Of a stretch of 62,388 nt of DNA, positions 1-17,225 are shown one piece after another. The DNA comes from Nitrosopumilus sp. LS_AOA (GTDB lineage: Archaea > Thermoproteota > Nitrososphaeria > Nitrososphaerales > Nitrosopumilaceae). The notes beneath the pieces are model-generated. The model did no database searches, was not told where the DNA came from, and saw only the letters and a list, made by a program, of their open reading frames with translations. Location: assembly GCA_001543015.1 (NCBI GenBank), contig LFLC01000032.1, positions 1 to 62,388 of the forward strand. The letters run 5' to 3'. Positions within the stretch are counted from its first letter, which is position 1; the number at the start of each line of letters is the position of its first letter. The translations under genes and the position numbers were made by a program.

Positions 1-811
1 TTATGGGAAAAATGGTGTCTATTCGACTGATACATCACTGAAAGATCTGTAAAACTCCTTTTACGTTTTCTCTGCAGAGGACATCTAACTTTAAGATTTA
101 ATAATTGATTGGTACATGCCTCACAGAATCCTCCATGCACGCAATTATCGTGTAAGAGCGCGAAATTTGTCACTCTTGGTAGTAGCCAAACGTGACATTG
201 ACTGCTATTGTCTTCTTCATTCATGTCATCTGACATATCACCTAAATTGTCAGAACTTTGAAAGGGTCCTGGTGCAGGATTTATGTTTGCATGCCCTATT
301 GTCAATGATATGGCATTGAGATAGTCGACTGCAGTATAAGTACCATTTAAATATTTTTCTTTACATTGCTTTCTGCGTATCTGTTTAGCCCTTGTAGTCG
401 CATTAGGATCTCTTGTAGTGGCATGACCATTCATCAATCTTTGCAATTCCAAATCGTTATCGGTAATAATATTGTTCAAACATTCCATGAACTTCCAAAT
501 GTTTGGATGGGAACTCTTTATATATGTTTTTAGAGAATTGTGATATGTTTCCGCTCCATTATTGGTCGCTTAATTTTATTACTTAGTGTAATTGCATCAT
601 GATTATAAGCTACAGCTTCATGATTGTGAAAAGTAGAAATTTCGAATAAATTTGCTGATTTGTTTATTTTCCCATTACATTCACAAGAGTGAGTTCGAAA
701 CAGGCTACATTTGACATAAATACAGGATTCAGGTTCCCTAGCCTTGACATATCGGAAACCTTCACAGAGATTCTTTTTACCTTCAATGACGGTATATTCC
801 ATTAAGATCAC
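1..811 (-). mobile_element. Decayed FLYWCH/MULE-type (Mutator-like) transposase gene with RING-like C-terminus, eukaryotic
   Basis: Read on the minus strand. Positions 811-530 encode a FLYWCH-like zinc finger: aromatic residues, two cysteines (YVKCSLFRTHSCEC) and a terminal HNHE. A second frame, open from 569 to the window edge with no stop (about 190 codons), continues with TNNGAETYHNSLK and HPNIWKFMECL, which I recognise as the C-terminal part of invertebrate MULE-transposase-like proteins. It ends in a RING-like finger (CVHGGFCEACT, then RCPLQRKR) with some zinc ligands substituted. The two parts are in different frames near 570, and the roughly 250-residue catalytic core is absent between them. 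This is therefore a deletion derivative or pseudogene, unless exons are missing. The family is eukaryotic and not expected in an archaeal chromosome. Confidence 0.6.
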
Positions 812-968
812 TTAGAAGGAGGAAATTAGTTGGTTTGTAGAATTTCAAGATATATGAATAGTTTTGCAATTTATACCTCGATACAATTGCATATAATGTG
901 GAATTGTCAAATGTAGAATACATAGAGACTTGTTGGGTGTCATACAAAACACAAAATTAAATAACAAT

Positions 969-1060
969 ACAATCACTATTAATTTGTTATCAACACTAGT
1001 TGTAAAATACCATACCTGCGAAAAATACAAAACAATCACTATTAATTTGCTATCAACACT
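969..1060. repeat. Direct duplication of a ~29-bp unit
   Basis: The unit ACAATCACTATTAATTTG followed by a variable base and TATCAACACT occurs at 969-997 and again at about 1032-1060, with one difference. It lies directly before the 53-bp tandem array. The 88-codon minus-strand reading frame across this interval is built from these repeats, and I do not consider it a gene. Confidence 0.7.
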
Positions 1061-1262
1061 TCCTAACTTTAATATAGTGTTGGATAAATTCCGGAATTGG
1101 ATGTAGGACAAATTCCTAACTTTAATATAGTGTAGGATAAATCCCGGAATTGATTGTAGGACAAATTCCTACCTTTAATATAGTGTAGGATAAATTCCGT
1201 AATTTGCTGAGGACAAATTCCTAACTCTAAGTGTAGTACACAATCCGATTTTCTCTAGGACA
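1061..1262. repeat. 53-bp tandem repeat, about 3.7 copies
   Basis: Copies begin at 1061, 1114, 1167 and 1219 with TCCTAACTTT or close variants. Each continues with AATATAGTGTAGGATAAAT, then a CCGGAATT-like core and GGACAAAT. The period is 53 bp, then 52 in the last step, and copies become more divergent toward the 3' end. No coding function is seen. Such minisatellite-like arrays suit the eukaryotic reading of this end of the window. Apart from these repeats I see nothing in the gene-free stretch 812-1415. Confidence 0.8.
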
Positions 1263-1314
1263 CATTCCGCGGTTCCTTACATATTAGTCAGCATAGCAAT
1301 AAAAGTATAATAAG

Positions 1315-1348
1315 TTGTTAGGTTCTTTAAACTTGTTAGGTTCTTTAA
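1315..1348. repeat. 18-bp-period tandem duplication
   Basis: TTGTTAGGTTCTTTAA is present at 1315-1330 and repeated exactly at 1333-1348. It is a short local duplication in the non-coding DNA just beyond the IFT139-like exon. Confidence 0.75.
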
Positions 1349-1415
1349 GCGATTCAAATATTTATTTTCATATGATAAAACTTATTGCCTTATTTATTAA
1401 GATTTGAGAAATAAC

Positions 1416-2299
1416 TGACTTATAATTATGTGTTTCAACAAGAGCTTGACCAATTTTCCTAGACAAAGCAGCATCTTTTGAATTCTTTTTAAGAGCTCCT
1501 TCGTAAATATCAATAGCTTTCTCAGTTTCCTGAACTCTCATATATGCATCTCCAAGCAATAACATTATGTAGGATTCAGAAATCTAAAAAATGTAAAATA
1601 ATCATTGATTTAAGTAACGTCCTAGCTAATGCTATAGCTCAGTGGATCTCAAGTTCAATCCTGTAGACCCTTTTAATCCATTTCCACAGAATCTGGTGAC
1701 ACATAGAGTATGCTTAGTTTAATTTTATGGCTCCCGAACCGAAGTTAAGGACCAATGCTACCATTCTGAGAGCGAATTTTAGAAACATTACTATATTATG
1801 TATATAAGCAGATGAGATACGAATAATGTTACGATTAGTATAGTCATACCTCGTTATAGAGGTCTTTATAACATTGGAGAAAAAGTTTCTTGTCTCTTCT
1901 CTTGTTCAAATATATATCTGCCATTAAAATGACTGCATCAACATAGCAGGTATGATCATTTGGTATTGATTTGAGATTTATTAATGCTGTGTCTATATCT
2001 CCACACTTAGCAGCAAGTTCTGCATCAGCCAATTGTAATCTAGCTTCTGCTTGCGAACCAACAAATAATTGTTTAGCTTCTCTCATTGTCCTCTCGGCCT
2101 GCTCTTTCTCACCTTCTTCAGCTTGCAGATTAGCTAACTCAACGTAGAATGAAGCTCTCTCCTGCACACTAATATTGAATCCTGGAGTAATTCTACTCTG
2201 CTTTTTAGTATTAGCCATACTACTTTTCATATCAGTAGAGGATATTGCTGATGTTAAGTTTTTTAAAGATTCCTTAGTATCGCCAAGTTTCTTACTAAC
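1416..2299 (-). CDS. IFT139/TTC21B-like intraflagellar transport TPR protein, two internal exons (partial, spliced, eukaryotic)
   Basis: Exon A (2299-1850) follows a TTACAG acceptor and ends GAG|GTATGA, a textbook 5' splice site. A 266-bp intron (1849-1584) ends in a pyrimidine-rich TTTTTTAG acceptor. Exon B starts at 1583 in phase 0 and runs to a donor near 1416-1420, where two GT sites are possible. The joined protein reads as tandem TPRs: ERASFYVELANLQAEEG, ADIYLNKRRDKKL, LLLGDAYMRVQETEKAI, VETHNYKS. From memory this closely follows animal TTC21B/IFT139 (for example ADIYLKHRKDK, LLLGDAYM, KTHNYS), a retrograde IFT-A subunit needed for cilia. Archaea have neither cilia nor spliceosomal introns, so this segment is eukaryotic. 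Upstream and downstream exons are not in the window. Confidence 0.85.
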
Positions 2300-2856
2300 C
2301 TGTAATATATTAATGCATCACTATATTTACATATACATACAGTCTCCCCTTTATAACGAAGCAAGAGGAAACTCTCAAATTATGTAATTATCTCCAAAGT
2401 TCGTTATAGCCTAGAATAGACTTATTATCTTTCTAATCTAGTAATAGACTGTTTACATTAAATTTCTATTCAAGCAGATGTTAGGCCAGTTGCAGATTAT
2501 GTAGAATCCGAATGAGATTTGTCCTGAGTGCAAACCACAATTTTAACTTTAGCCAAATATAGCAAGCAATTGAATATTTGTTTTTAGGTAAACAAAAATT
2601 TTAGTCCTAGTTCAGATTTGACATACTCTAGCCATAGAATTTTGCAAATTGGCATAAATGAAAAAAACTTGTCATTATATTGTGTCTGTTGGCGGTAAGT
2701 TTTCCTTTGCGGACAAAATCATTTCTCATTCCCGATATAATAACAAATATATCGATTGTAACCACATGTAAGTATTCACAAGTGTATAAAAAATTAAATA
2801 GTTAAAGTTACTATACTATTTGATGTCGATAGATATAATTCCTATCGAATAAAGTT
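2300..2856. other. Gene-free AT-rich stretch containing the probable eukaryote/archaeon junction
   Basis: I see no reading frame, tRNA or recognisable gene here. Eukaryotic coding signal ends at the 2299 splice acceptor, and archaeal-style coding resumes with the gene ending at 2953. A small inverted repeat, TCGATAG/CTATCGA (2826-2832 and 2842-2848, 9-nt loop), sits just before the structured element at 2857. The exact switch between the two DNA types cannot be placed by eye. Confidence 0.5.
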
Positions 2857-2949
2857 GCGTAACCCCGCAGAACAGAAAAGGCAATCATGTGTTTTGACAC
2901 ATGACCACGAGAGGAAATCTCTCAACGTTCTGCAGTTAGGGGTTTACGC
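2857..2949 (+). ncRNA. Candidate structured RNA with closing stem and two internal hairpins
   Basis: An outer helix pairs GCGTAACCCC (2857-2866) with GGGGTTTACGC (2939-2949, one bulged T). It continues directly into GCAGAAC (2867-2873) paired with GTTCTGC (2927-2933), leaving a 5-nt bulge on the 3' side. Inside are a perfect 8-bp hairpin TCATGTGT/ACACATGA (2885-2892/2897-2904, TTTG loop) and a 5-bp hairpin GAGAG/CTCTC (2909-2913/2919-2923). This three-way-junction fold is far more GC-rich than its surroundings. The strand is uncertain and either could fold. I recognise no known RNA family. It lies just past the 3' end of the 2953-3384 gene, so a long 3'-end hairpin is an alternative. Confidence 0.5.
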
Positions 2950-2952
2950 CTT

Positions 2953-3384
2953 TTAATTTTCTAAAATATCCACTGATACTGAGCCCATTACATTTCCATT
3001 GGGATTAATAGAAATCAAAATCTCTTGTTCTTCAGGAATCAAAATATTTCTCTCTCCATTGTAATTCCATGTGTAATATTCTGATATTCCAGTTTGGTGT
3101 GATGTACCTTCAAGCTTGAAATCTTCAGAAAAATCAAAACTATCACCATTTAATTTAATTGATAATATTTTTGGGCTGCTACCATTTGGAACAAAACTAA
3201 ATGAATATTCTCCTTTACTAATAGCAAATTCATCAAAATATACTCCATTTGTATACAAATTAGGATCTGCAAGAGTAATATGAAAAACATTATTGCTTTT
3301 TTCTACATTTGAATCAGATGAAAAATTTATTGCAAAAACTATGACGATAATGATAATTGGAATAACGGCGATTTTTTTATTCAC
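2953..3384 (-). CDS. Hypothetical membrane-anchored or secreted protein
   Basis: 143 residues starting at ATG. The N-terminus is a short basic stretch (MNKK) and a strongly hydrophobic segment of about 17 residues (IAVIPIIIIVIVFAINF), so it is a signal anchor or signal peptide. The remainder is acidic and likely beta-rich, with aromatic and Gly/Asn residues (for example EYYTWNYNGE). No enzyme motif is seen and no family is recognised. It is the first archaeal-looking gene from the left end and is transcribed away from the cdvB gene at 3540. Its function is unknown. Confidence 0.6.
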   Translation of the reverse strand: MNKKIAVIPIIIIVIVFAINFSSDSNVEKSNNVFHITLADPNLYTNGVYFDEFAISKGEYSFSFVPNGSSPKILSIKLNGDSFDFSEDFKLEGTSHQTGISEYYTWNYNGERNILIPEEQEILISINPNGNVMGSVSVDILEN

Positions 3385-3539
3385 TGGAACGATTTCTTTT
3401 CTCCATTATAAAAATAGATTTTCTGCATAAAATATTTCTTAAAATCATTAGTTTAACTGGTATTTTTGTTAGTAAAATTTTACAAGCAGTGAACCATTTT
3501 TTACACCTTGAATTAAGTATATTTTCTTAAAGCAAATTC

Positions 3540-4181
3540 ATGCCTAGTTTGAATAATACGTGGACTACACAACCAAAATCCAATATTTCTGAAAAAATTA
3601 ATGATACAATCAAGCCTAAAGGTGCATTAAAACCAAGAGTTCAAACTGGAATAAAAAAATTACAATTACAAATTAAAAAATTAGATACAATGTTGACTGG
3701 CCTACAAGAGCGAGATGTAAAACTATTTCAAAGAATTGTAGATGCAACACAGAACCATGATACTCAAACAAGCAAAGTTCTAGGAAATGAACTAGCAGAG
3801 ATACGAAAAGTAATTAAAATTATGAGTGGTGCTAGAATTGCATTAGAGCAAATTGAATTACGATTAATCACATTCAGTGATCTTGGAGATACAGTAGTTG
3901 CAATAATGCCAACTATGGGTTTGATGAAAAATCTAAAATCATCTCTTGGAAAAGTAATGCCTGGAGCTGAACAAGAAATCAGTCAAATGGCAGAAATGCT
4001 TGGAGGTTTTATGACTGAAAGTTTCTCAGGTGATGGAGCATTTAGTATGGATGAAACTACTAATACAGAATCTGAAAATATTCTAAAAGAGGCTGCTGCA
4101 GTAGCTGAAAGTTCTACAGGAGAAATGTTTCCATCAGTACCAAGTAGTACTCAAGAAGCAACTAGTACAAAATTTCTATAA
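3540..4181 (+). CDS. cdvB: CdvB-family ESCRT-III-like cell division protein (paralog 1)
   Basis: 213 residues. The N-terminal region GALKPRVQTGIKKLQLQ and the amphipathic helices to about residue 150 (LQERDVKLFQRIV, HDTQTSKVLGNELAEIRKV, ALEQIELRL) match the Snf7/ESCRT-III core of thaumarchaeal CdvB proteins. The tail after about 155 is acidic and Ser/Thr-rich. CdvB forms membrane-remodelling filaments at the division site with CdvA and the ATPase CdvC, neither of which is in this window. A second, clearly similar paralog lies at 27526-28176. This copy diverges more and carries more Lys/Ile. I see no obvious MIM2-type proline motif near the end, so direct CdvC recruitment is uncertain. Confidence 0.85.
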   Translation: MPSLNNTWTTQPKSNISEKINDTIKPKGALKPRVQTGIKKLQLQIKKLDTMLTGLQERDVKLFQRIVDATQNHDTQTSKVLGNELAEIRKVIKIMSGARIALEQIELRLITFSDLGDTVVAIMPTMGLMKNLKSSLGKVMPGAEQEISQMAEMLGGFMTESFSGDGAFSMDETTNTESENILKEAAAVAESSTGEMFPSVPSSTQEATSTKFL

Positions 4182-4191
4182 TTCAAAAATT

Positions 4192-4659
4192 TTAACTTTC
4201 TAACGAGTTTTTAGATTCTTTAATTTTTCTAACTCTATTTCCTTCATCATCAATAATTCTATCAACACCTGCTAGTTTATCTCTTAAAGAATTAATTATT
4301 GTACCAACTTCATCAGCTTCATCCTCTACCCTCTTTCTTTTACTTGCAAGCTCCATTATTCCTCTATTTTCCTCATCAATGTATTCGCTAACTTTTTGAA
4401 GTTTTTCTTTTAAATTTTTAATATCTACTGATTCTTCTTCAATATCTTTTTCAAGTAAAGTTCTCTTATCTTTTAAATTTTTAATCATTAAACCAACATA
4501 ATCTATTGCCTCTTCTAATTTTGCACGTTTTCCCATTAATTCCCCGATTCCAATTTGACTAGATTCAGCTGGAGTTTCTACAGATTCTGCATTAGATGTT
4601 TCTTCAGGTCTTTCTTCTACCATTTCTCCTCCCTCATCATTTTTGAATTTATCAAACAT
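4192..4659 (-). CDS. Coiled-coil protein of unknown function
   Basis: 155 residues from the ATG at 4659 (MFDKFKNDEGG). A longer in-frame start at 4737 would add a 26-residue aromatic extension that looks like untranslated leader, and a TTTTTAT box lies about 30 nt before the chosen ATG. Residues about 1-40 are acidic and low in complexity. The rest is a continuous heptad-patterned coiled coil rich in Glu and Lys (KRAKLEEAIDYV, LEKDIEEESVDI, KRKRVEDEADEV). The gene converges on cdvB at 4181 with a 10-bp gap. A role in division or cytoskeletal scaffolding is only a guess from this neighbourhood. Confidence 0.65.
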   Translation of the reverse strand: MFDKFKNDEGGEMVEERPEETSNAESVETPAESSQIGIGELMGKRAKLEEAIDYVGLMIKNLKDKRTLLEKDIEEESVDIKNLKEKLQKVSEYIDEENRGIMELASKRKRVEDEADEVGTIINSLRDKLAGVDRIIDDEGNRVRKIKESKNSLES

Positions 4660-4761
4660 TTTATAATTTCTTTTCTGAAATAGGAATAAAAAGTTACTAT
4701 GAGTCTCAAAGCTGACCTTGTGAATGATTTTAGTCAATAAAAAAAAGAAAATGGTGATAAA

Positions 4762-5373
4762 TCACCAGTTGAAATTTCTTAATTTTTCATTTGCAAGATC
4801 TATTTTTTCTAAATTTTCTCCAAAATCAAGGAATTTCATATTTTGAGTCAATTCAGGAAAGAAGATAGAATTTACAAAGTAAATAATTTTCTCACTTTCT
4901 AAATCTGAATTTACAATATTTCCTGAAAAAATGACTTTGTATCTTAGTTCTTTTTCAGCAGTCTCACTTTGAGAATTTTCAGGTATTTCAAGCCCAGATT
5001 GACTATCTTCAAGCAAATTAGTAGAAATCTCTAGTTGATTCTCTCCAATTTTTGATGCTTTTCCATCGTATAGTACAATTCCTGAATGAAGTGCATTGTA
5101 ATTCACATATGCCCAACTTGATGATTCTTCTTCAAATGATACCATTCTCTGTTTATCATTATCTGAAAACTCATCAGGTAGAGAATATTGTTGAATTTGC
5201 AACTTCCCATTCACTACTTTTTCAGTAAGAATTACTCCTAGTCTTTTATTTTTCAAAAGTTCAGAGTCATTTTCTCCAAAGTCTGCAAATGAATAACTTA
5301 CAGATAGTGGTGAGGTACCAAGCATTACAAATATTGCAATGACTCCAAATGATCTTTTTTGGGAATTTTTCAC
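4762..5373 (-). CDS. Secreted hypothetical protein with signal peptide
   Basis: 203 residues starting at GTG. It has a basic N-terminus, a hydrophobic core (FGVIAIFVMLGTSPLSV) and a plausible signal-peptidase site after SYSFA. The mature part is acidic (many Glu, Asp, Ser) with no cysteine pairs or catalytic motif visible. No family is recognised. It is probably cell-surface or pseudoperiplasmic. About 300 bp of AT-rich non-coding DNA separates it from the divergent regulator at 5677, so the two may share a control region. Confidence 0.6.
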   Translation of the reverse strand: MKNSQKRSFGVIAIFVMLGTSPLSVSYSFADFGENDSELLKNKRLGVILTEKVVNGKLQIQQYSLPDEFSDNDKQRMVSFEEESSSWAYVNYNALHSGIVLYDGKASKIGENQLEISTNLLEDSQSGLEIPENSQSETAEKELRYKVIFSGNIVNSDLESEKIIYFVNSIFFPELTQNMKFLDFGENLEKIDLANEKLRNFNW

Positions 5374-5676
5374 ATTTAGAATGAAGTTAAAATGATAGAT
5401 TAGGAACAGTGAGGAATCATCCTGTTCTTTATATGCAAAATTTTTTCAAAATTCCCAAAAACTATAAAATTTAAAATTTTTTTCTAAAAATAATAAAAAC
5501 AGGATGTTTTCAAGAAAATAATAATTTTTTAATCAATTTTTTACGCATGAACTTTCTCCCCGCATCATTTTTGTAAAAAATCATACGATTTTCTTAGCTA
5601 AAACACTGTTCCGCTTTGTGTTCCGCTTTAGCGTTTCATAATGTCCCTAATTATCTAATTAGTTCTATACTTTAAC
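5374..5676. other. Divergent intergenic region with short direct repeat
   Basis: This is a gene-free, AT-rich 303-bp stretch between divergently transcribed genes. It holds a direct repeat of GTTCCGCTTT (about 5607 and 5619) and the palindrome described at 5647-5662. No RNA gene or reading frame is supported. Confidence 0.5.
5647..5662. promoter_or_regulatory. Candidate operator palindrome upstream of the winged-helix gene
   Basis: CTAATTA-TC-TAATTAG is a perfect 7-bp inverted repeat with a 2-bp spacer. It is centred about 22 nt before the ATG at 5677, where the TATA box and transcription start of a leaderless archaeal gene would lie. Binding here would block initiation. The obvious candidate binder is the winged-helix protein it precedes (autoregulation), which is an inference. 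Confidence 0.45.
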
Positions 5677-5964
5677 ATGTCAAAACAACAATACAGGTCC
5701 GAAATGGGCATAATGGGTGATATCTTAGACGTTACCGCTGATGGCGGCCGTGATGGAATCATTGTATCTGCAATCTCTCGAAAAGCAAACCTATCTCACT
5801 ACGCAGTATTAGACAAATGTGAGAAATTGGTAGAAGCCGGCTTAGTAGAATCCACAAAAAATGAAAGGAATAGAGTCTTTCAAATAACTGAAAAAGAATT
5901 AGCATTTTTTCAGGAATTTAAGAGATTTCAGGGATTAGTAGAAAGCATGAATCTAAGGTATTGA
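5677..5964 (+). CDS. Small winged helix-turn-helix transcriptional regulator
   Basis: 95 residues. The sequence follows the archaeal small wHTH pattern (HTH_45-like): a starting helix RSEMGIMGDILDV, then GIIVSAISRKANLSHYAVLDKCEKLVEAGLV as helix-turn-helix, and a wing-like VESTKNERNRVFQITEKE. A C-terminal helix could dimerise it. It is followed after 3 bp by the membrane wHTH protein at 5968, so the two are probably co-transcribed. The palindrome at 5647-5662 overlaps its promoter and may be its own operator. Target genes are unknown. Confidence 0.75.
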   Translation: MSKQQYRSEMGIMGDILDVTADGGRDGIIVSAISRKANLSHYAVLDKCEKLVEAGLVESTKNERNRVFQITEKELAFFQEFKRFQGLVESMNLRY

Positions 5965-5967
5965 CTC

Positions 5968-6993
5968 ATGAATCCCCAAATTGTACCAATTCATAGGAAA
6001 GAATCTCTTCGAGAAGATGGAATGCTTTTTGTAAGGACTGAAGGTATCCTCGATACGATGGTCAAATTACCCCTTTTGGTAGCTAGCATGATTATTGTAG
6101 CAGCAGTAATGCCAATTCAGTCTTCATTCAGTTCTCCTAGAGTTCTTGATTTAATTATTTATCCAGATGGAACAACTCATGTCTCATCAGAAATTGATGT
6201 TGATCCACTTGTTACTGATTATGAACTTGATCTATTTGGAAGTACAATTGATAATTTTGTAGTAGTAGGAGAAGATGGATTTCTACTAAATACTGATGTT
6301 ATTGGTAATTCAGCATTAATTGAAACTTTTGGTTCATCTATTATTACTATAGAATATGACATTCATGATTTAGTTTCAAAACAAGGTAGAATTTGGACAT
6401 TCTCTTTGGATGCTCCATCTGATTTTACATTACTTTTACCAAAAAATTCTGCTATAGTTGGAATGACAAATCTTCCAATTAATATGGAAATAATTAATGA
6501 TCAAAACCAATTAACATTATCAGTGGGCGATACTGAAATTGATTATCTTTTCAGTACAACTCCAATAATATCTGATCCTATAGTTTCAGATACTTTAACA
6601 CCACAAACTGATTATCTTACATATGCATTAGTTGGTGGGGTTGTTGCAGCATCTATTGCTGGAATAGCAATAGTAATTCGTTCCAAACAAAAAACTGCTA
6701 AACCAGAACAGGTTCAAGAATCTACACAAAAAATTGAAACAGTTGATGCTGAAACAATTTTTAAACTAAAACCAGATTTACGTGAAGATGATAAAGAAAT
6801 AGTGAAGTTTATTGCTAATAATGGAGGATATGCACTTGAAAGTGAATTGCGAAAGAAATTCTTACAACCAAGAACTACAATGTGGCGTGCAGTTAAGAGA
6901 TTAGAGCGTAATGGAGTTATAGTAATTGAAAAGAAAGACTTGCAAAATCTTGTAAAATTACGAAAAGACATAGAGAAGGAGGAAGAGGAATGA
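5968..6993 (+). CDS. Membrane-anchored protein with extracytoplasmic domain and cytoplasmic C-terminal winged helix
   Basis: 341 residues from the ATG at 5968. A later ATG at 6058 (MVKLPLLVASM) would start at the signal-like hydrophobic segment and is a realistic alternative. Order: N-terminal hydrophobic segment at about 31-55; a beta-rich outer domain at about 57-210 (VLDLIIYPDGTTHVSSEI); a TM helix at about 215-240 (YALVGGVVAASIAGIAIVI); a charged linker; and a wHTH at about 270-330 (ELRKKFLQPRTTMWRAVKRLERNGVIVIE). This matches archaeal one-component membrane-bound regulators, which may couple an outside signal to DNA binding. It overlaps the next gene by ATGA. Confidence 0.75.
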   Translation: MNPQIVPIHRKESLREDGMLFVRTEGILDTMVKLPLLVASMIIVAAVMPIQSSFSSPRVLDLIIYPDGTTHVSSEIDVDPLVTDYELDLFGSTIDNFVVVGEDGFLLNTDVIGNSALIETFGSSIITIEYDIHDLVSKQGRIWTFSLDAPSDFTLLLPKNSAIVGMTNLPINMEIINDQNQLTLSVGDTEIDYLFSTTPIISDPIVSDTLTPQTDYLTYALVGGVVAASIAGIAIVIRSKQKTAKPEQVQESTQKIETVDAETIFKLKPDLREDDKEIVKFIANNGGYALESELRKKFLQPRTTMWRAVKRLERNGVIVIEKKDLQNLVKLRKDIEKEEEE

Positions 6994-7805
6994 AAACATT
7001 AGCAATATTTACAATATTTGTATTAATTTCTGGAGTAGCATTTACATCATCAGCTAATAATGCATATGCACAAAATGATCCTAGTATTTTATTACGCATT
7101 GCTACACAAGCAGACAAACAAATCTTAAATCAATTAGATAGATCATATGGTGATTCGATACCATCTAAGATACAAACACTATATGAAAAAGGACACACAT
7201 CAGTTGAATCATTAAAAAATTCATTACCTGATAATATAGAACAAGCAAGAGAAGATTTCCTTTCAGCAATGAAATCATTTAAACAAATTACAAGAATGAT
7301 TTCAGAACCTGTTGCAGAATCGAAGATTTCTGCATATACATCAGAATCTCATAGAGATTTTTCTAGTGAACTAGATAGATTAGAAAAACATGTGCAAAAT
7401 CTAAAAAAGATATCTGAAAAATATAAATCTGAAATAAATTTTGATGAAATTGATAATTTAATCAATGAAGCATATATTCAAATCGATAATGGAACTGATA
7501 ACACATCTGAAATTATTGATAAATTAAAAGACCTTATTCATTCTATTGAAAAGGAAATTCGTGAATCTGCTTCTCATGGGGCATCTGATAGAATTAAACA
7601 ATTTATTGATAAACAACTGAAAGGTATTGAGAAGAAATTAACAAGAGCACTTGATGCAGGAGCTGATGAAACCCAAATTGATAATGCTCATGAATTAATT
7701 GCTGAAATCAAAATTCTAATTTCTGAAAACGATATCGATAACGCAAAGATGGTATTTCATGATTTACACAAATTAGTGAAAAATATCGTACGTTCGGTAC
7801 GGTAG
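6990..7805 (+). CDS. Secreted coiled-coil protein, partner of the membrane regulator
   Basis: 271 residues. The start ATG overlaps the upstream stop (ATGA), showing translational coupling with the membrane wHTH gene. A clear signal peptide (MKTLAIFTIFVLISGVAFTS) ends near NNAYAQ. The mature protein is almost entirely alpha-helical and charged (ELDRLEKHVQNLKKISEKY, DKQLKGIEKKLTRALDAG), consistent with a long coiled coil or helical bundle. No catalytic motif is seen. The tight coupling suggests it works outside the cell with the sensor-like domain of the 5968 product. That is inference from gene order. Confidence 0.7.
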   Translation: MKTLAIFTIFVLISGVAFTSSANNAYAQNDPSILLRIATQADKQILNQLDRSYGDSIPSKIQTLYEKGHTSVESLKNSLPDNIEQAREDFLSAMKSFKQITRMISEPVAESKISAYTSESHRDFSSELDRLEKHVQNLKKISEKYKSEINFDEIDNLINEAYIQIDNGTDNTSEIIDKLKDLIHSIEKEIRESASHGASDRIKQFIDKQLKGIEKKLTRALDAGADETQIDNAHELIAEIKILISENDIDNAKMVFHDLHKLVKNIVRSVR

Positions 7806-7820
7806 ATAACATAAGCTTCA

Positions 7821-7826
7821 TATACA
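7821..7826 (+). promoter_or_regulatory. TATA-like box of a leaderless gene
   Basis: TATACA lies 25 nt before the ATG at 7846, the spacing expected for a transcript starting at or just before the start codon. It supports choosing ATG 7846 rather than the in-frame TTG at 7840. Confidence 0.4.
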
Positions 7827-7845
7827 TTTTCTAAAGAATTTGAAC

Positions 7846-8040
7846 ATGGCATCAAAAGCAATTACTATTGGTGTAGGAATTCCAATGATAATAGTTGGTG
7901 CTTTAATGGCCTGGTTATGGGGCTCAATTGAAGGCGTTTATCAAAACCAAATAGAACTAATTGGAAGTACAATTGGAATTTTAGGTGTTGTATTCTTTAT
8001 TTCTGGATTATTTTATACAAAAGAACCTGTAATGCATTAG
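7846..8040 (+). CDS. Small two-helix membrane protein
   Basis: 64 residues from the ATG at 7846 (MASKAITIGVG); an in-frame TTG six bases earlier is less likely. Two hydrophobic helices (GVGIPMIIVGALMAWLW and IGSTIGILGVVFFISGLFY) are joined by a short polar loop (GSIEGVYQNQIEL), giving a hairpin membrane protein. No family is recognised. It lies between the secreted coiled-coil gene and queE, with its own TATA-like box. Confidence 0.6.
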   Translation: MASKAITIGVGIPMIIVGALMAWLWGSIEGVYQNQIELIGSTIGILGVVFFISGLFYTKEPVMH

Positions 8041-8081
8041 AAACTCATCGAATAAATAATAAAAAAAAACAGTGTTGTTAC

Positions 8082-8795
8082 TTGAAAGTCAGAATATTTG
8101 AGATATTTACATCAGTTGAGGGAGAAGGAATTCTTTATGGAACAAAAACTCTTTTTGTAAGATTAGCAGGTTGTCCTTTTACTTGTTTTTATTGTGATAC
8201 AAAAGAATCACTTCCACTTGATTCTGGAATAGAATATACAATTGATGATGCATGCCAACTAATTGATTCTAATTTAAAAAAACAAACATACAAAGTTAAT
8301 TTTACAGGTGGTGATCCGTTAATTCAACACCAAGCAGTTGCACAACTTGCAAAGTATATTCAAGAAAAGAAAATTCCTACATACCTTGAATCATCTTGTT
8401 TTGATATTGATAGATTTAATCATGTTTTACCATTTTTTGATATTGTTAAAATTGAATTCAAAACAAAAGATTCTGATTTTGTAGATTCTAAACATTATGA
8501 CAAATTAATTGATCACACATTCAAATGTCTTGAATCTTCTGTAAAAGAAAAGAAAACAACATATATCAAAATTGTTGTTAGTTCTAAAACCAAACTAAAT
8601 GATTTTGAAGATTTGACAAATCAAATTTTCAAAATTATTTCTAAAGAAAATATTGATGGATTTGTCATTCAACCTACATATGGTATTGCTGAACCATCAT
8701 TGGAACTTTTATTGGATTTGTATGATATTGTATATCCACATTACATTGATGTCAAAGTGGTTCCACAGCTACACAAATTCATTGGAGCACCATAA
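8082..8795 (+). CDS. queE: 7-carboxy-7-deazaguanine synthase (radical SAM)
   Basis: 237 residues with a TTG start. Radical-SAM signature C-x3-C-x2-C in LAGCPFTCFYCDTK, preceded by EIFTSVEGEGILYGTKTLFVRL, which is diagnostic of QueE. NFTGGDPLIQ is the SAM-binding GGE-type segment. The enzyme converts 6-carboxytetrahydropterin to 7-carboxy-7-deazaguanine, the second specific step toward preQ0 and, in archaea, the tRNA nucleoside archaeosine. The neighbours folE (8855) and queC (9706) supply the preceding GTP cyclohydrolase and the following preQ0 synthase. QueD and the tRNA transglycosylase are not in this window. Confidence 0.92.
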   Translation: MKVRIFEIFTSVEGEGILYGTKTLFVRLAGCPFTCFYCDTKESLPLDSGIEYTIDDACQLIDSNLKKQTYKVNFTGGDPLIQHQAVAQLAKYIQEKKIPTYLESSCFDIDRFNHVLPFFDIVKIEFKTKDSDFVDSKHYDKLIDHTFKCLESSVKEKKTTYIKIVVSSKTKLNDFEDLTNQIFKIISKENIDGFVIQPTYGIAEPSLELLLDLYDIVYPHYIDVKVVPQLHKFIGAP

Positions 8796-8854
8796 TTATC
8801 TGCCTAAAAATCAGATTAGGTTCAAATACTAGAAAAATTCTGTGAAATTATAAA

Positions 8855-9412
8855 ATGGATGACGAACGCGTAAAAAAACTCATTAGAGAATTAATTATTG
8901 AAGTTGGAGAAGATCCTACCCGTGAGGGATTACGAGAGACACCTCAAAGAATTGCAAATATGTACAAAGAAATCTTTGGTGGATATGACTCTGATTCAGA
9001 ACTATCAGTACAATTCTCTGAAGACTCTGATGTAGTAATTGCACGTGATATTCAATTTTATTCAATGTGTGAGCACCATATGTTACCATTTTTTGGAAAG
9101 GTTCACATTGCATATTCTCCAAATGGTAGAGTTTTTGGAATATCAAAATTGGTACGACTAGTTGAGAAATATGCAAAAAGATTACAAATTCAAGAAAGAT
9201 TAACCAAAAACATTGCAGATGAACTATACTCACAAGGAGTGAAAGGTGTAGTGGTATTAGCTGATGCTGAACATCTATGTATGAAAATGCGTGGTGTTAG
9301 AAACGATGCAACTTTGACTTCATCAGCATTTAGAGGAATTTATGAAAATACCCGAGAAAAAGAAGGCATTTTGGCTTTAATTAGAAAACATGCACCTGAT
9401 TCTTACATGTAG
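8855..9412 (+). CDS. folE: GTP cyclohydrolase I
   Basis: 185 residues. Family signatures: zinc and active-site segment YSMCEHHMLPFFGKVHIAY, a second zinc Cys in EHLCMKMRGVRND, and the substrate segment GRVFGISKLVRLVEKYAKR. It forms 7,8-dihydroneopterin triphosphate from GTP, here most likely feeding deazaguanine synthesis because queE and queC flank it; a tetrahydropterin role is also possible. The length is normal for the core enzyme without the longer N-terminal regulatory arm. Confidence 0.93.
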   Translation: MDDERVKKLIRELIIEVGEDPTREGLRETPQRIANMYKEIFGGYDSDSELSVQFSEDSDVVIARDIQFYSMCEHHMLPFFGKVHIAYSPNGRVFGISKLVRLVEKYAKRLQIQERLTKNIADELYSQGVKGVVVLADAEHLCMKMRGVRNDATLTSSAFRGIYENTREKEGILALIRKHAPDSYM

Positions 9413-9454
9413 AAATACTGAAAAATTAAATAATCTAAATTTTTGATAAATATC

Positions 9455-9703
9455 ATGGGAGTGCATCCAAATATTCACATTCCAAAAGAATCATGGCCTA
9501 GATGGACATGGTATGCAATAGAATGTATAATTGTAATTGCAGTAACTTTGGTATTATCAAGTAAAATTACTAATTCAATAGAAGGACTATCTCCTGAAGT
9601 ACAAAACTACATGTTTATAGGATTTTTAGGAGTTTCGTTTTTCATTTGGTATATTGTAATTAGACGTATTATTCTAACAAAGTTTCTTCGAAACGGTTAC
9701 TAA
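9455..9703 (+). CDS. Small two-TM membrane protein
   Basis: 82 residues from the ATG at 9455 (MGVHPNIHIPKESWPRW). An in-frame TTG at 9443 would add four residues. TTAAATAAT about 30 nt upstream suits a leaderless start. Two TM helices are seen, IECIIVIAVTLVLS and FIGFLGVSFFIWYIVIRR, with a basic C-terminus. No function is recognised. It ends 2 bp before the convergent queC stop. Confidence 0.6.
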   Translation: MGVHPNIHIPKESWPRWTWYAIECIIVIAVTLVLSSKITNSIEGLSPEVQNYMFIGFLGVSFFIWYIVIRRIILTKFLRNGY

Positions 9704-9705
9704 TT

Positions 9706-10380
9706 TTATTTTAAATATTTTGTTTTATCATTAATTCTAGCTTTTGCAAATGCACTTTTTCTATTGTTACAAGATTCACAAACTCCACAATGATATTTTT
9801 TATTGGAATAACAACTCCAAGTCTTAAAGATAGAATCACCTAGAACTTTGATTCCTGATTTTAATAAATTACTTTTTGATAATCCCTCACGATAGGGTGA
9901 CCAAATTGTAAGACTTTTTCTTAATTTTGAATTAATTCCATCAATTTCTCCTTGATTAAATGCAGACTCTAATTTTTTTGTAAAAATTGGTCTACAATCA
10001 GGATAGTGTTTATCTCCTGTATGAGCACCATACACAACAAGTGAAGCATTTAGAGTATATGCCCATGCTGATGCTATAGATAAAAAAACTGCATTTCTAA
10101 TTGGAACTACAATTGAATATTCAAATTTACTAGGAATTTTCTTTTTTGAACTTGTTAAAACATTAGAATCACCGTACAAATCTTTCATAAAACCAATATC
10201 AATGACTTTGTGCTGTTTTAACCCTAATTTTTTAGCAAAATATTTTGCAGCAGTAATTTCCATATCTGCCTTTTGTCCATATGAGAACGTAATACCGTAC
10301 AACTCATATTTTGATTTCAAATATGAAACTGCACAAACAGAATCTATCCCACCACTAAAAACAATAACTGCTTTTTTCAT
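9706..10380 (-). CDS. queC: 7-cyano-7-deazaguanine (preQ0) synthase
   Basis: 224 residues. ATP pyrophosphatase PP-loop VIVFSGGIDSVCAVSYL at the N-terminus; YGITFSYGQKADMEI and the VVYGAHTGDKHYPDCRP segment are typical of QueC. The C-terminal zinc site C-x8-C-x2-C-x2-C is intact (CYSNKKYHCGVCESC). It converts 7-carboxy-7-deazaguanine and ammonia to preQ0. It lies next to thrB with a 6-bp gap and may be co-transcribed with thrB and the GPN GTPase. Confidence 0.92.
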   Translation of the reverse strand: MKKAVIVFSGGIDSVCAVSYLKSKYELYGITFSYGQKADMEITAAKYFAKKLGLKQHKVIDIGFMKDLYGDSNVLTSSKKKIPSKFEYSIVVPIRNAVFLSIASAWAYTLNASLVVYGAHTGDKHYPDCRPIFTKKLESAFNQGEIDGINSKLRKSLTIWSPYREGLSKSNLLKSGIKVLGDSIFKTWSCYSNKKYHCGVCESCNNRKSAFAKARINDKTKYLK

Positions 10381-10386
10381 AAATTC

Positions 10387-11316
10387 TCAACTATAATTTT
10401 TTTTATCAATTGCACCTATACTAGGTTTACAGATAATTATTTGACATTTTGTATTGGCTGTTGCAAAACCTCTTGACATTGCTAAACCAATTTTTTTTAA
10501 ATTAGAAGATTTTTTTGCAAATGCTATCACTGATGGTCCTGCTCCACTAATTGTCACCCCTAACGCTCCTGCTTTTAGAGCATTTTCTTTGACTTTGGTG
10601 AATCCTGGTATCAAATGCTGTCTTGCAGGTTCAACTATTACATCTTTGATTGAATTTCCAATTAATTCTGGATCCTTACTCATAAATCCTGCAACAATTC
10701 CTGAGGCATTTGATAAATTCAAAACACTATCAGTTAGTTTAATTTTTTTAGGAATTACTCCCCTTGATACTTTGGTTTTCTTTTTTGGAACTTTAATTTT
10801 TGGAACTGCAATACACATTCTAAGATTTGTTGGTGGCTCAATTCTAATTACATCAAGTGGATTAGTTTTTACAATTACAAATCCTCCTAAAACAGATGCT
10901 GCTACATTATCATAGTGAATTGAGCCGGCACTAGCTTTTTCTCCTGATCCTGCAAATTCTACTATACTATTTTTATCCAATTTTAATCCAAATAGTTTAT
11001 CAAATGCTACTGCAGTTGCAGCAGCTGATGCAGCACTGCTTCCCATCCCAAATCCTGCAGGAATTCCTTTTTTGATTTTTATTTCAACACCGTCCTTAAT
11101 TTTGAATTTCTTCTTCATATTTTTTACAACTAGTCCTGCTGTATTGTTTTCAGGCTTTGTCGGAACATCATCACTAGTAATTATTGTAATTCCACTTTTT
11201 GTTTTAGTCAATGTCACTTTATCATACAATGCATCTAGTGCTAATCCAAACACATCAAAACCTGGACCTAAATTTGCAGTAGATGATGGAGCTTTGATAG
11301 TAATTTTTGATATCAC
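10387..11316 (-). CDS. thrB: Homoserine kinase
   Basis: 309 residues with a GTG start that overlaps the upstream TAG by one base (TAGTG), so it is translationally coupled to the GPN GTPase. GHMP-kinase motifs are present: APSSTANLGPGFDVFGLAL near the start, the ATP loop PAGFGMGSSAASAAA, and the C-terminal ITISGAGPSVIAF (seen as VTISGAGPSVIAFA). It phosphorylates homoserine for threonine synthesis. Length is normal for archaeal ThrB. Confidence 0.92.
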   Translation of the reverse strand: MISKITIKAPSSTANLGPGFDVFGLALDALYDKVTLTKTKSGITIITSDDVPTKPENNTAGLVVKNMKKKFKIKDGVEIKIKKGIPAGFGMGSSAASAAATAVAFDKLFGLKLDKNSIVEFAGSGEKASAGSIHYDNVAASVLGGFVIVKTNPLDVIRIEPPTNLRMCIAVPKIKVPKKKTKVSRGVIPKKIKLTDSVLNLSNASGIVAGFMSKDPELIGNSIKDVIVEPARQHLIPGFTKVKENALKAGALGVTISGAGPSVIAFAKKSSNLKKIGLAMSRGFATANTKCQIIICKPSIGAIDKKNYS

Positions 11317-12074
11317 TAGTCTTCTACCTCCTCACCCAAATTAAGAATTCTACTTAACGCACCTTCAAGATTGATAAATCCATCACCTGTTGTATTTGAT
11401 ATTGGGATTAATCCTTGTGCAAACCCACCTAGATTCAATCCACGTAAAATATTTGAAGTCAATGAATATGTATCTCCATCAACTTCCTTAGCTATTGCAT
11501 TTTCTAATGTACTCAAACTAGTAGTCCAATGTAAAATTTCTTTTAGTTTATCTCCTATAATGTCTGTTTTAGTTAATACGTTAATTGCGGGTAAATTCAA
11601 TCGTAATCTAATTGATGTAGCTAGTAATGCAATTGATACAAAATTTACTGGAGATGTAATTAGAGCGCCATCAAAAAGAAAGATACTTGTTTTCTCTTCT
11701 GATGTAAGATTTTCTACAATGAATGGCCCACTAGAACGATATGCAAATAATTCAATTTGTCCAGGTGTATCAACAATTAGATAATCAGGATTTACGTTGT
11801 GTACCTCATTTTGAATCTCATCAATTTTTGATGCAATCAAATCATTTGCCATTACTAGTGCTCCATTTGGACCAAGATCGTATTGCTGCATAATTGAGAC
11901 ATAATCGATATAGTCCCTCACATCAATATCACAAGTGTATGGCATATTTTCTACACCTGGATCCAAATTTAGTACGGCTGCAAAAACTCCACTATTCGTA
12001 TAATGTTCAAGCAACTTTGATGTAAGAAGTGATTTTCCAGAACCTGCAGTACCTGAAACAAAAATCGTTTTCAA
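11316..12074 (-). CDS. GPN-loop GTPase
   Basis: 252 residues with a TTG start. Walker A TIFVSGTAGSGKSLL, the GPN insertion YDLGPNGALVMAND, LIVDTPGQIELF (G3) and NVLTKTDI (G4) define the GPN-loop family, homodimeric in archaea and related to eukaryotic GPN1-3, which act in RNA polymerase assembly. The exact archaeal role is unsettled. It is the first gene of a probable operon with thrB and queC. Confidence 0.88.
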   Translation of the reverse strand: MKTIFVSGTAGSGKSLLTSKLLEHYTNSGVFAAVLNLDPGVENMPYTCDIDVRDYIDYVSIMQQYDLGPNGALVMANDLIASKIDEIQNEVHNVNPDYLIVDTPGQIELFAYRSSGPFIVENLTSEEKTSIFLFDGALITSPVNFVSIALLATSIRLRLNLPAINVLTKTDIIGDKLKEILHWTTSLSTLENAIAKEVDGDTYSLTSNILRGLNLGGFAQGLIPISNTTGDGFINLEGALSRILNLGEEVED

Positions 12075-12218
12075 CTCTTTGATTCTTTTTTTGCTTGTAT
12101 TTCAAACTACTTTAAAGTGGATTTTATTCATTTTTTACGCCTAATTTGATATATTGACTAGTTAATGAATAGAAATTTGCTCAACTTTCATATTTGATTC
12201 CTTAAAAAAAATATTCAG

Positions 12219-13235
12219 ATGAACTGGAGACTAGTAGCAATACCTGTTACACTAATACCTATTTTCATAATTGCTATTCAATTTGATATTAAATTAGCAG
12301 ACATTCTAGCAATTGGAGTTTATCCATTTATTGGAGCAATAACTGTAATGATGATAAAATTAGGTCTTCAGGGAGTTAAATTTGCATATATCACAAGAAA
12401 GTATCTTGGTAATTTTGATTCATTTTTCAAGCTAGTTGGTGTTAGAGTCGGTAGCGAATTTATCAAATTTACTACTCCAATGTTTATTGGTGCAGAATTT
12501 GTTGTAATTTATTATTTAAAGAAAAAGGGAGTCGAGCTATCAAAAGCTACATGGATTGCACTAGTAGATATTGTAACTGAAGTTCTTGCAGCAGGTTTGT
12601 TATCTATAATGGCTGGAATTCTTGCGTTACTAAGTGGTGCATATGTTGTTGGAATAATTATTTTGATTACTAGTATTATTGTTACATTTGTGTGGGTGCT
12701 AATGTTTTTCTTATCATCCAAAAGAGTTTTCCAAGTTCCAACTACATTAGAAAATATTGTTAAAAAACTAGGAAAAGAAAAAGGTGTTAAAATTGTTGAC
12801 CAAGCTAATTCTTGGATGAATGAAACATGTACTGTAATTAAAGAAAACATCAATACTCCTGAATCCAAAAAAATCTTTACAGTTTCATTTTTGTTTTCAC
12901 TTGTATCTTGGTCATTTTATGGATTATCATTTATGATAATTGCAATGGGGACAGATTATGTGATAAATGTATTTGATTCTATAATGGCTGTAATGGGCGC
13001 TAATGCAATTGGAAATCTACCAATAACTATAGGTGGCTCTGGTTTGGCTGAATTTGGAATTGTTGCATATCTAAATAATTTGAATCCATTTGATTTTCAT
13101 ATCGCAGAAGGAATTGTTGCCTGGGATGCAGTGATAGGCTGGAGAATTGCAACATATTATGTTCCAGTTTTGATTACATGGCTATTACTAGTAAAATTAG
13201 CCTTGAGTAAAATCCCTAAATCAAAAACCACATAG
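12219..13235 (+). CDS. UPF0104/LPG-synthase-TM-like flippase-type membrane protein
   Basis: 338 residues with about eight TM helices. The conserved family features are the cytoplasmic loop KLVGVRVGSEFIKFTTPMFIGAE and, near the C-terminus, GNLPITIGGSGLAEFG, as in AglD/MprF transmembrane-domain proteins. Members include polyprenol-phosphate-sugar flippase-like proteins and the membrane half of lysyl-phosphatidylglycerol synthases. The soluble transferase half is absent. A role in cell-envelope glycan or lipid transport is inferred from the family. It precedes an SDR gene by 35 bp. Confidence 0.8.
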   Translation: MNWRLVAIPVTLIPIFIIAIQFDIKLADILAIGVYPFIGAITVMMIKLGLQGVKFAYITRKYLGNFDSFFKLVGVRVGSEFIKFTTPMFIGAEFVVIYYLKKKGVELSKATWIALVDIVTEVLAAGLLSIMAGILALLSGAYVVGIIILITSIIVTFVWVLMFFLSSKRVFQVPTTLENIVKKLGKEKGVKIVDQANSWMNETCTVIKENINTPESKKIFTVSFLFSLVSWSFYGLSFMIIAMGTDYVINVFDSIMAVMGANAIGNLPITIGGSGLAEFGIVAYLNNLNPFDFHIAEGIVAWDAVIGWRIATYYVPVLITWLLLVKLALSKIPKSKTT

Positions 13236-13270
13236 AAACCACTTTATCTTTAAATGATTTTTTTGAATTT

Positions 13271-14065
13271 ATGGATTTTAAAAATAAAGTAATTCTAATT
13301 ACTGGCGCATCATCAGGAATTGGTAAACAATCTGCAATAGAATTTGCAAAAAAAGGTGCAAAGCTAATCCTAGTTGCAAGAAGAAAAGACAAACTAGAGC
13401 TAGTTGCAAAAGAATTAGAAAAATTTCATACAACAATCCTTGTTTGTCAATGTGATGTATCAGACAAAGACCAAGTAAAAGAAATGTCAAAAACAGTACT
13501 AGAAAAATTTAACAGCATAGATATTTTGGTAAATAATGCAGGTTTTGCAATTTATGGCACAGTATCTAGTTTATCTATAGATGAGATAGAATCACAAATG
13601 AATACTAATTATTTTGGAATGATATACTGTGTCAAAAATTTCCTTCCCTCAATGATTGAGAAAAAATCAGGTCACATTGTTAATGTCGCATCAGTTGCTG
13701 CAAGCTTTGGATTACCAGGAATTGCATCGTACTGTGCATCAAAATTTGCAATGCTTGGATTCTCAGAGGGTCTAAAACATGAACTAAAAGGCACGGGAGT
13801 AGGAATTACAGTCGTTAGTCCAATAATGGTTAGAACTGATTTTTTTGATCATCCATCATTTGAAAAAATGCCAAAATTCTCTCCAACATCACTTAGCTCA
13901 AAGACTGTTGCAAATGCAATCATAAAAGCTGCAAACTCTCCAAGATTAGAAATTATTACTCCATCTATAGTACGTGGTGCTGTATGGTTCAAACATACAT
14001 TTCCATATCTTATCAATCCAATTCTTGGAAAAGCTTTCAAAAATATTTCAGATTCTAAAAAATAA
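13271..14065 (+). CDS. Short-chain dehydrogenase/reductase
   Basis: 264 residues. Classical SDR motifs: TGASSGIGKQSA (cofactor loop), CDVSDKDQV, NNAGFAIYG, catalytic Ser in VASVAASFG and YCASKFA. RRKDK after the second strand suggests NADP(H) preference. The C-terminal region after about residue 200 is longer and basic-hydrophobic (VWFKHTFPYLINPILGKAF), as in DltE/acyl-reductase-like SDRs, possibly membrane-associated. The substrate cannot be named from sequence. Confidence 0.85.
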   Translation: MDFKNKVILITGASSGIGKQSAIEFAKKGAKLILVARRKDKLELVAKELEKFHTTILVCQCDVSDKDQVKEMSKTVLEKFNSIDILVNNAGFAIYGTVSSLSIDEIESQMNTNYFGMIYCVKNFLPSMIEKKSGHIVNVASVAASFGLPGIASYCASKFAMLGFSEGLKHELKGTGVGITVVSPIMVRTDFFDHPSFEKMPKFSPTSLSSKTVANAIIKAANSPRLEIITPSIVRGAVWFKHTFPYLINPILGKAFKNISDSKK

Positions 14066-14073
14066 TTCTAGCT

Positions 14074-14265
14074 TTACTCTTCAGTATCACTATCTGTAGT
14101 CTCACTTGAGCCTACTTCTGTTAATTCTAGAGATTTTAAATCAAATTGATAGATTGCCTTCATTTCAATTTCTTTATCTAAAAATTCTGTAACTTTTTTG
14201 CTTAGTGGTGCTTTATGTTGATCAAAAATAAATTCATAAACTTCACCTTTTAGTAAACCATCCAT
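14074..14265 (-). CDS. Small acidic hypothetical protein
   Basis: 63 residues with an ATG start. The body reads as a small beta/alpha fold (LLKGEVYEFIFDQHKAPLS, KAIYQFDLKSLELTEVG) followed by an acidic Ser/Thr tail (SSETTDSDTEE). No motif is recognised. It converges on the SDR gene with an 8-bp gap and lies 29 bp downstream of the zinc-ribbon gene on the same strand, so the two may form an operon. Confidence 0.55.
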   Translation of the reverse strand: MDGLLKGEVYEFIFDQHKAPLSKKVTEFLDKEIEMKAIYQFDLKSLELTEVGSSETTDSDTEE

Positions 14266-14294
14266 TTTGATTGTCTTTGGTAACTAAATCGGCT

Positions 14295-14606
14295 CTAGTC
14301 TAATTCTTTTTCTTTTTTACTTTTTGACCACCACTCAAGATAGTCATCGTGTTTATCATCACGTGTTCTTTCTTTTTGATTTAGTTTGTATCTAATGTCT
14401 GATACCTCTTCTCTTGTGGCATATAGTCCACATCGTTTACAGATGAAATGTCTTCTATTTTTTTCATCCATCTTCATTGGGATGTCAATTTCATCAAATA
14501 ATTTGAATAAGTCTTCTCTACCTCTTTCCTCTTCTGGTACTTCTTCTTCATACTTTGCTACAATTTTCTTTTTCTCTCGGAATGTACATTCAGGACAATT
14601 AGGCAC
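14295..14606 (-). CDS. Zinc-ribbon hypothetical protein
   Basis: 103 residues with a GTG start. Two CxxC knuckles (NCPECTF at residues 3-8 and CKRCGLY at about 56-62) flank an acidic helical insert (EEEVPEEERGREDLFKLF). This is consistent with one zinc-ribbon fold, common in archaeal proteins that bind nucleic acids or ribosomes. The C-terminus is charged and helical. The exact function is unknown. The hairpin-RNA candidate lies just upstream. Confidence 0.65.
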   Translation of the reverse strand: MPNCPECTFREKKKIVAKYEEEVPEEERGREDLFKLFDEIDIPMKMDEKNRRHFICKRCGLYATREEVSDIRYKLNQKERTRDDKHDDYLEWWSKSKKEKELD

Positions 14607-14667
14607 TATGATTTTGGCTTAATTTTTTCCATAAAAGCGTTGGCACCTTCTTTACTGATCGATGTGA

Positions 14668-14735
14668 ATCTGACACGCGGATTTTTTCATCATCCCTTTC
14701 GGTCCGTTCGCCCATCGAAATCCCGCGTGCCAGAT
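14668..14735 (-). ncRNA. Candidate hairpin RNA, GC-rich, between two minus-strand genes
   Basis: The arms at 14668-14684 (ATCTGACACGCGGATTT) and 14718-14735 (AAATCCCGCGTGCCAGAT) form about 17 bp with one bulged base. The single mismatch is A-C if transcribed on the plus strand but G-U on the minus strand, which favours the minus strand. The minus-strand loop contains GGACCGAAAGG, with a possible CC-GAAA-GG GNRA tetraloop, and GATGATGA, which resembles a box C sequence. The GC content far exceeds the flanks. It lies 25 nt past the stop of the 14760-15995 glycosyltransferase. Possible identities are an sRNA (for example of H/ACA or C/D type) or a transcript-end structure; none is proven. Confidence 0.5.
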
Positions 14736-14759
14736 GAGCGAATTTCTTAGGATAATGTA

Positions 14760-15995
14760 TTATCTCTTTTCTTCTAGAATTTCTGCAGCAATTTTTGCTG
14801 AATTTTCTGCCCCAGTAGGAACAAAATTCTTTGAAAACTCACTCAAACTACCCTCAAATTCTGCGTAATTTTCTTTAATTTTAGAAATTCCTTGAATCAC
14901 TTGCTTTGTTTTTATGGCTAAAACACCCAAATTTTTCTCCTGAGCCCATTTGATGTTGTTTGTATGTTCATCATAAATTGGAATTCCAATAATTGGCTTT
15001 GATTTTCCACCCATAATTTCCCCCATGACAGTATGAGAGCCATTAACTACTGCATAATTACATAAATTCAAAATTGTATCTTTTTCTTGTTCTGAGAGAA
15101 ATCCAATATCTATTTGAATCCAATCAATCTTTTTCTCCAAAGCATCAGATATTGAATATTTTTTACCATCTTTTCCAATTACTCCATCAATACTTGATTC
15201 ATTTCTTGCATGTGAAATAATTCGTTTTTCTTTTTGCATTTCCGATTGAGTGAATACTTCTTCATATCTTTGACCTGTTCCGTCATTAGTTGATTTGTTT
15301 CCTGTTCTCATCCAATAACCAAATTCATTATTGGCAACTAATTGTTCTAAATCCGTCTCTTTTTCTTTTTGAATTGGTTTACTGTTTGTAAAATGTCCAA
15401 CATAAACAACTTTTTCTTCTGCTTCTTTTATGAAGTTTAGATTATATTCACACATTGTATATGGTGGAGGAGAATCTGCAACAAGAATTTTTGATGCTTT
15501 AATAATTTGTTTTGCAATAAAAATTAATGATGGATAAAGATATGATCTTGAATTATATAATTTTGGTCTAAATTGATTTGTTACAAATAAACTCGGAATA
15601 TTTCTATTTTTTGCCAAAATATTTGAACCCATGTCACCATCATTGATTACCAAATCAAATTTTTCTTTATTGTATAATTTTCTCTCTTCTCTCAAATAAT
15701 TAATTATTTGTCTTATCAGGGAAGGATTATTTTCAATTGGTAATAGTATATTCATCAATGATTTTGAAACACTTGGACCAAATTTTCCATCAATTGGTGT
15801 TGGCATTAAAATATTATGAATTTTTTCTTTCTTGTCTGGAAATCTTTTAATTAATTTTTCATAAACGTGATCTTTACTTGAAAAATGAACATCTAATTCA
15901 TCATCAATGTGATCTTCTAGTGCTTCATGCAATCTCATCATTCGAGAATAGTGACCACTTCCCCACGGATAGATAAATTCCCCTATTTTGAGCAC
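14760..15995 (-). CDS. GT-B-fold glycosyltransferase (MurG/UGT-like)
   Basis: 411 residues with a GTG start. The N-terminus KIGEFIYPWGSGHYSRMM is the glycine-rich GxGH-type acceptor loop of the MurG/GT28/UGT superfamily. LVINDGDMGSNILAKN corresponds to the donor-side strand of the first domain, and VNGSHTVMGEIMGGKSKPI is the C-terminal nucleotide-sugar binding segment (G-x-T-x-x-E equivalent). The donor and acceptor are unknown; a surface or lipid glycan is likely given the STT3 and flippase-type genes elsewhere. No signal peptide is seen. Confidence 0.78.
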   Translation of the reverse strand: MLKIGEFIYPWGSGHYSRMMRLHEALEDHIDDELDVHFSSKDHVYEKLIKRFPDKKEKIHNILMPTPIDGKFGPSVSKSLMNILLPIENNPSLIRQIINYLREERKLYNKEKFDLVINDGDMGSNILAKNRNIPSLFVTNQFRPKLYNSRSYLYPSLIFIAKQIIKASKILVADSPPPYTMCEYNLNFIKEAEEKVVYVGHFTNSKPIQKEKETDLEQLVANNEFGYWMRTGNKSTNDGTGQRYEEVFTQSEMQKEKRIISHARNESSIDGVIGKDGKKYSISDALEKKIDWIQIDIGFLSEQEKDTILNLCNYAVVNGSHTVMGEIMGGKSKPIIGIPIYDEHTNNIKWAQEKNLGVLAIKTKQVIQGISKIKENYAEFEGSLSEFSKNFVPTGAENSAKIAAEILEEKR

Positions 15996-16035
15996 AATAT
16001 GAAACCAAATATGCCTGTTTAAATTCTCAGTGATT

Positions 16036-17142: not shown

Positions 17143-17166
17143 AATTTCTATTTTGAATTCTACTTG

Positions 17167-17172: not shown

Positions 17173-17225
17173 ATTTAGGATAAAAATCGGGTAATCAATA
17201 TAAAACAAATACTTCAAAACATAGT

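Follow-up and report, generated by a model that had tools for sequence, protein, structure and literature searches.

The window analysed here is an entire contig, C36 (62,388 bp), from a Nitrosopumilus assembly of 1.93 Mb in 67 contigs with a completeness of 98.6%. Two kinds of DNA lie on it. Positions 1-2784 are contig-end DNA of eukaryotic type, set apart by the lack of matches in relatives, by open reading frame (ORF) coverage and by tetranucleotide usage. Positions 2785-62388 (plus strand) are a Nitrosopumilus chromosome segment, recognised by its identity to the isolate NORP47 and by a gene neighbourhood conserved across the genus.

The eukaryotic end carries a split coding sequence on the minus strand. 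Exon A (1850-2299, 150 aa) encodes TT21 ARM/TPR repeats and aligns with human TTC21B from residue 573 onwards; an acceptor, TATATTACAG/GTTAGT, stands just before 2299, and a donor, GAG/GTATGA, at 1850/1849 (slashes mark the splice boundary). The GT-AG intron that follows (1584-1849, minus strand, 266 bp, phase 0), read from sequence and reading frame, contains stop codons in all three minus-strand frames and ends in the acceptor TTTTTTAG. Exon B (1421-1583, minus strand) opens in phase at 1583 (TTTTTTAG/ATTTCT), encodes a TPR segment running from LLLGDAYM to ETHNYK, and takes the phmmer alignment to residue 777 of human TTC21B; its 3' border is uncertain (about 1416-1421), with a weak candidate donor, AA/GTCAGT, near 1421. 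The GT and AG ends, the pyrimidine-rich acceptor and a phase kept across a homologous protein are, at the sequence level, those of a spliceosomal intron. The open frames and the colinearity across the splice thus bear out the original prediction of a spliced gene with two TPR exons joined in phase over a 266-bp GT-AG intron. Because an acceptor-like sequence precedes 2299 and a weak donor lies near 1421, exons A and B are both internal, and the gene to which they belong is longer. Within the intron, positions 1628-1675 (TAGCTCAGTGG...AGTTCAATCC) resemble the A and B boxes of a tRNA, unusually close together, and this element is possibly a degraded tRNA-derived SINE.

Identity of the encoded protein

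The joined protein matched the Pfam family ARM_TT21 (PF25058) with 118.7 bits against a cut-off of 27 (E = 2.8e-34). When it was compared with the proteins of solved structures using phmmer, human TTC21B was the best match (E = 1.1e-39, 139 bits), with 77 of 204 positions identical (38%) and residues 2-209 of the protein colinear with human residues 573-777. Matches of this strength lie far outside what chance would give. The second-best structure (E = 1.6e-30) is IFT139 of Chlamydomonas, and the next two, more divergent chains scored about 1e-22. Three of the top five PDB matches are named TTC21B/IFT139 and two are unnamed TPR chains, presumably the IFT139 proteins of Tetrahymena and Leishmania. 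The fragment shares the TT21 ARM/TPR architecture of IFT139/TTC21B, a component of the IFT-A complex (PDB 8fgw chain D, 8bbe, 8bda), with which it is colinear over 204 aa, and also the motif MADIYL, an RKDK-like motif and LLLGDAYM. It differs in extent, with about 210 residues present out of about 1,316 in IFT139/TTC21B (a complete gene encodes about 1,300), and in sequence, at 38% identity to the human protein. These comparisons show that the stretch is a fragment, with its intron, of the eukaryotic cilium gene IFT139/TTC21B, in agreement with the family assignment that had been proposed for it.

TPR repeats are common in prokaryotes and the TT21 profiles weakly match archaeal TPR proteins, which would fit a reading of the protein as a prokaryotic TPR protein and of the intron as two ORF remnants that happen to pair. 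Against this, the match to TTC21B is colinear and at full strength across the splice, and generic archaeal TPR proteins reached only about 20-31 bits with PF25058, compared with 118.7 bits here. The order of the scores also argues against it, since human TTC21B ranks above Chlamydomonas and the latter above two other IFT139-like chains, with generic TPR proteins far lower. The scores refute a prokaryotic TPR identity, and we regard this reading as having practically no chance of being correct. In a set of 151 family genomes, the present one alone matched PF25058 strongly (119.9 bits). No other pieces of an IFT139 gene were found in this genome with the two exons as the only query, and when the genomes of about 85,000 species were scanned with the protein, a search limited to close relatives and perhaps not including this genome, there were 39 pattern matches, none of them confirmed. 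In the organism that owns the gene, the product acts in ciliary transport as one of the TPR/ARM-repeat subunits of IFT-A. Because human TTC21B outscores the algal and other IFT139 proteins, an animal or a near relative of animals is weakly suggested as the donor.

Extent of the foreign DNA and the archaeal neighbourhood

The original prediction had placed the foreign part at 1416-2299. Its eukaryotic nature held; its extent proved larger, covering 1-2784 with the boundary at 2784/2785. ORFs of at least 100 aa cover 28% of 1-2784 versus 92% of the remaining window. The tetranucleotide distance of 1-2784 (0.325) lies above that of each of the 228 equally long archaeal windows, although only slightly (maximum 0.317). 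The GC content of 1-2784 is near that of the archaeon and CpG depletion does not tell the two parts apart, and base composition alone is thus a weak test. No match to 1-2784 was found in the NORP47 genome or at 61 named loci of the same group, and DNA comparison gave no match to 2300-2784 among 60 related genomes. Two decayed ORFs with sub-threshold Pfam similarity to FLYWCH (E = 0.0085) and RING (E = 0.0023) domains occupy 3-811 on the minus strand, and perhaps represent a MULE-type transposon. At 1060-1230 lies a 53-bp minisatellite of 3.2 copies (Tandem Repeats Finder score 272, also detected by a second repeat finder), a possible fingerprint of the source species. As a whole, 1-2784 reads as ordinary eukaryotic nuclear DNA in character.

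The remainder of the window is a thaumarchaeal chromosome, as had been supposed. From 2785 onwards it is Nitrosopumilus, with 97-99% identity to, and near-collinearity with, NORP47 contig G203:C16 over 2785-20000, where the comparison ended. In this part the ORF at 3540-4181, which matched no Pfam family, has a 69%-identical DNA paralogue on the same contig (3602-3970 versus 27588-27956).

The junction itself (2784/2785) was located by the start of homology in relatives and by the continuity of NORP47 across the site. In 45 of the 61 named loci the archaeal homology begins between 2783 and 2795, most often at 2785, and DNA comparison with the 60 related genomes placed it at 2785-2795 in most same-genus genomes having the site. 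To the left of this point, relatives carry a conserved block of genes for an SDR oxidoreductase, a CysQ-like phosphatase, APS kinase (CysC), a hemerythrin-like protein, an antiporter and TFB, names that were assigned by reading translations. In the present assembly these genes lie on a separate contig, C30 (4,922 bp; G000:C30:37-4465), to within 36 bp of its tip, and sequences corresponding to C30 and C36 adjoin in 42 of the 61 named loci with a spacing of -11 to 274 bp. NORP47 (NVWC01000019.1), a Nitrosopumilus-group isolate for which a literature search by isolate name returned nothing, shows 97.7% identity over the whole length of C30 and 96.9% over C36 from 2785 onward. Its order is the end of C30, then 19 A/T-rich bp (AAAATATTGTAAAATTTTA), then C36:2785, uninterrupted. 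NORP47 therefore shares the gene order of C36 from 2785 and, unlike C36, is continuous across the junction and lacks 1-2784. No eukaryotic DNA was detected on the C30 tip. A repeat shared at the junction was rejected, as the C30 tips and window positions 1-3200 have no exact 11-mer in common. Since NORP47 is continuous here and has no match to 1-2784, the archaeal chromosome runs from C30 into C36, with the 2.78 kb of foreign DNA sitting at a contig end where the assembly broke.

Origin of the join

The combined results leave us almost certain that 1-2784 is a chimeric contig end, made of eukaryotic DNA that an error in assembly or library construction attached to the archaeal contig. The join is read as an artefact because a near-identical archaeon runs across this point without such DNA, and the true continuation of the chromosome is present elsewhere in the assembly, on C30. 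An assembly chimera was also the explanation ranked first in the original prediction, and the placement of the left archaeal sequence on C30, together with a 97%-identical relative continuous across the site, speaks for it. The estimated contamination of the genome, only 0.02%, counts against a chimera, but marker-gene estimates are blind to eukaryotic DNA of this kind.

Transfer between the genomes could give a similar picture. A genuine and recent insertion of host DNA into the chromosome of this Nitrosopumilus strain, with the SDR gene on one side and the structured RNA described below on the other, would account for a junction that falls cleanly within an intergenic gap, and at the level of contigs an insertion at this exact spot, with C30 stopping at its far edge, would be indistinguishable from a chimera. 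It would, however, require C30 to end at that edge by coincidence and without a single foreign base, when its tip, free of foreign DNA, lies no more than 19 bp away; NORP47 and the other relatives covering the site show no interruption there, and two internal exons with an intron would be useless to an archaeon. The opposite direction, with archaeal DNA inserted from a symbiont into a eukaryotic nuclear genome and the contig being host DNA, would likewise explain the presence of both kinds of DNA on one contig. It sits poorly with the approximately 59.6 kb of archaeal sequence that follow, the first 17 kb of which are 97-99% identical and near-collinear to NORP47. A host copy beside the normal archaeal copy would be expected to leave duplicates, but a search of the genome for the first 3 kb gave, besides the RNA paralogue, no further copy, and C30 supplies the missing neighbour. 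The genes of C36 stand in conserved order as one side of an otherwise intact archaeal neighbourhood, and this idea, ranked third in the original prediction, is accordingly disfavoured. We consider both directions of transfer very improbable, and equally so.

The chimeric reading would have the assembly break in the A/T-rich, palindromic intergenic stretch, and eukaryotic reads or a chimeric molecule would then have extended the contig end in error. The foreign DNA would have come from the nuclear genome of a eukaryote, probably an animal-like host or an organism sampled along with the archaeon. Because it was joined by an assembly or library chimera, the fragment would have no function in the archaeon. 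At 129 of the 134 contig ends, inspected with a crude test, no other clear eukaryotic stretch was seen, so a single event is likely. Two contigs, C54 (2574 bp) and C65 (2870 bp), read entirely as N and fall outside this check. Low-coding stretches considered as host DNA were rejected, being an rRNA operon (C11), a CRISPR-like array at the end of C47 and a sparse 7.7-kb element (C41). The array (L144:16400-19500) is long, with roughly 40 copies of CAATTAATGATATTCTAAAACAATAAAGATTGAAAC and later a variant repeat. C41 (L138, 7732 bp) is sparsely coding, with two tRNA genes and short ORFs, and is perhaps a mobile element or the remnant of a virus.

Cross-kingdom contamination of public assemblies has been documented with Conterminator (PMC7218494) and FCS-GX (PMC10246020). 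As in those cases, eukaryotic DNA is here labelled as part of a prokaryotic genome; instead of forming a contaminant contig of its own, however, it is attached to one end of a contig that is otherwise truly archaeal.

A candidate structured RNA beside the junction

Immediately inside the archaeal part and outside the chimera, covariation and a covariance model point to a conserved, candidate structured RNA of archaeal origin at 2822-2961 (plus strand). It is roughly 140 nt long and forms a long stem with two inner hairpins, with a T-rich run at its 3' end, and is preceded by a promoter-like TTAAATA box at about 2794-2800 whose core is invariant. Among 32 copies, 97.3% of pair cells were standard, and 7 pairs had changed on both sides compared with a mean of 2.9 in shuffled alignments (0 of 500 shuffles as high). 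When the partner was slid by 1-3 columns, pairing fell to 31-54%. Of 120 Nitrosopumilaceae-level family genomes, 115 contained matches to the covariance model, usually two each, and in a sample of 151 genomes drawn from the phylum all 25 matching genomes were Nitrosopumilaceae. The second copy in the present genome lies at G000:C53:35561-35700 (-). No match was found in Rfam and no report in the literature searched. Together, these alignment-based results suggest that 2822-2961 is probably a new structured RNA gene of the Nitrosopumilaceae.

The join itself has no biological meaning; left in the reference, it would pass for a ciliary gene of eukaryotic type carried by an ammonia-oxidizing archaeon, or for an interdomain transfer, and we advise trimming C36 so that the sequence from 2785 onward is kept. 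The fragment hints at the DNA of a ciliated eukaryote in the sample. Of greater biological interest than the chimeric join is the RNA at its side, probably a gene that this archaeal family carries.
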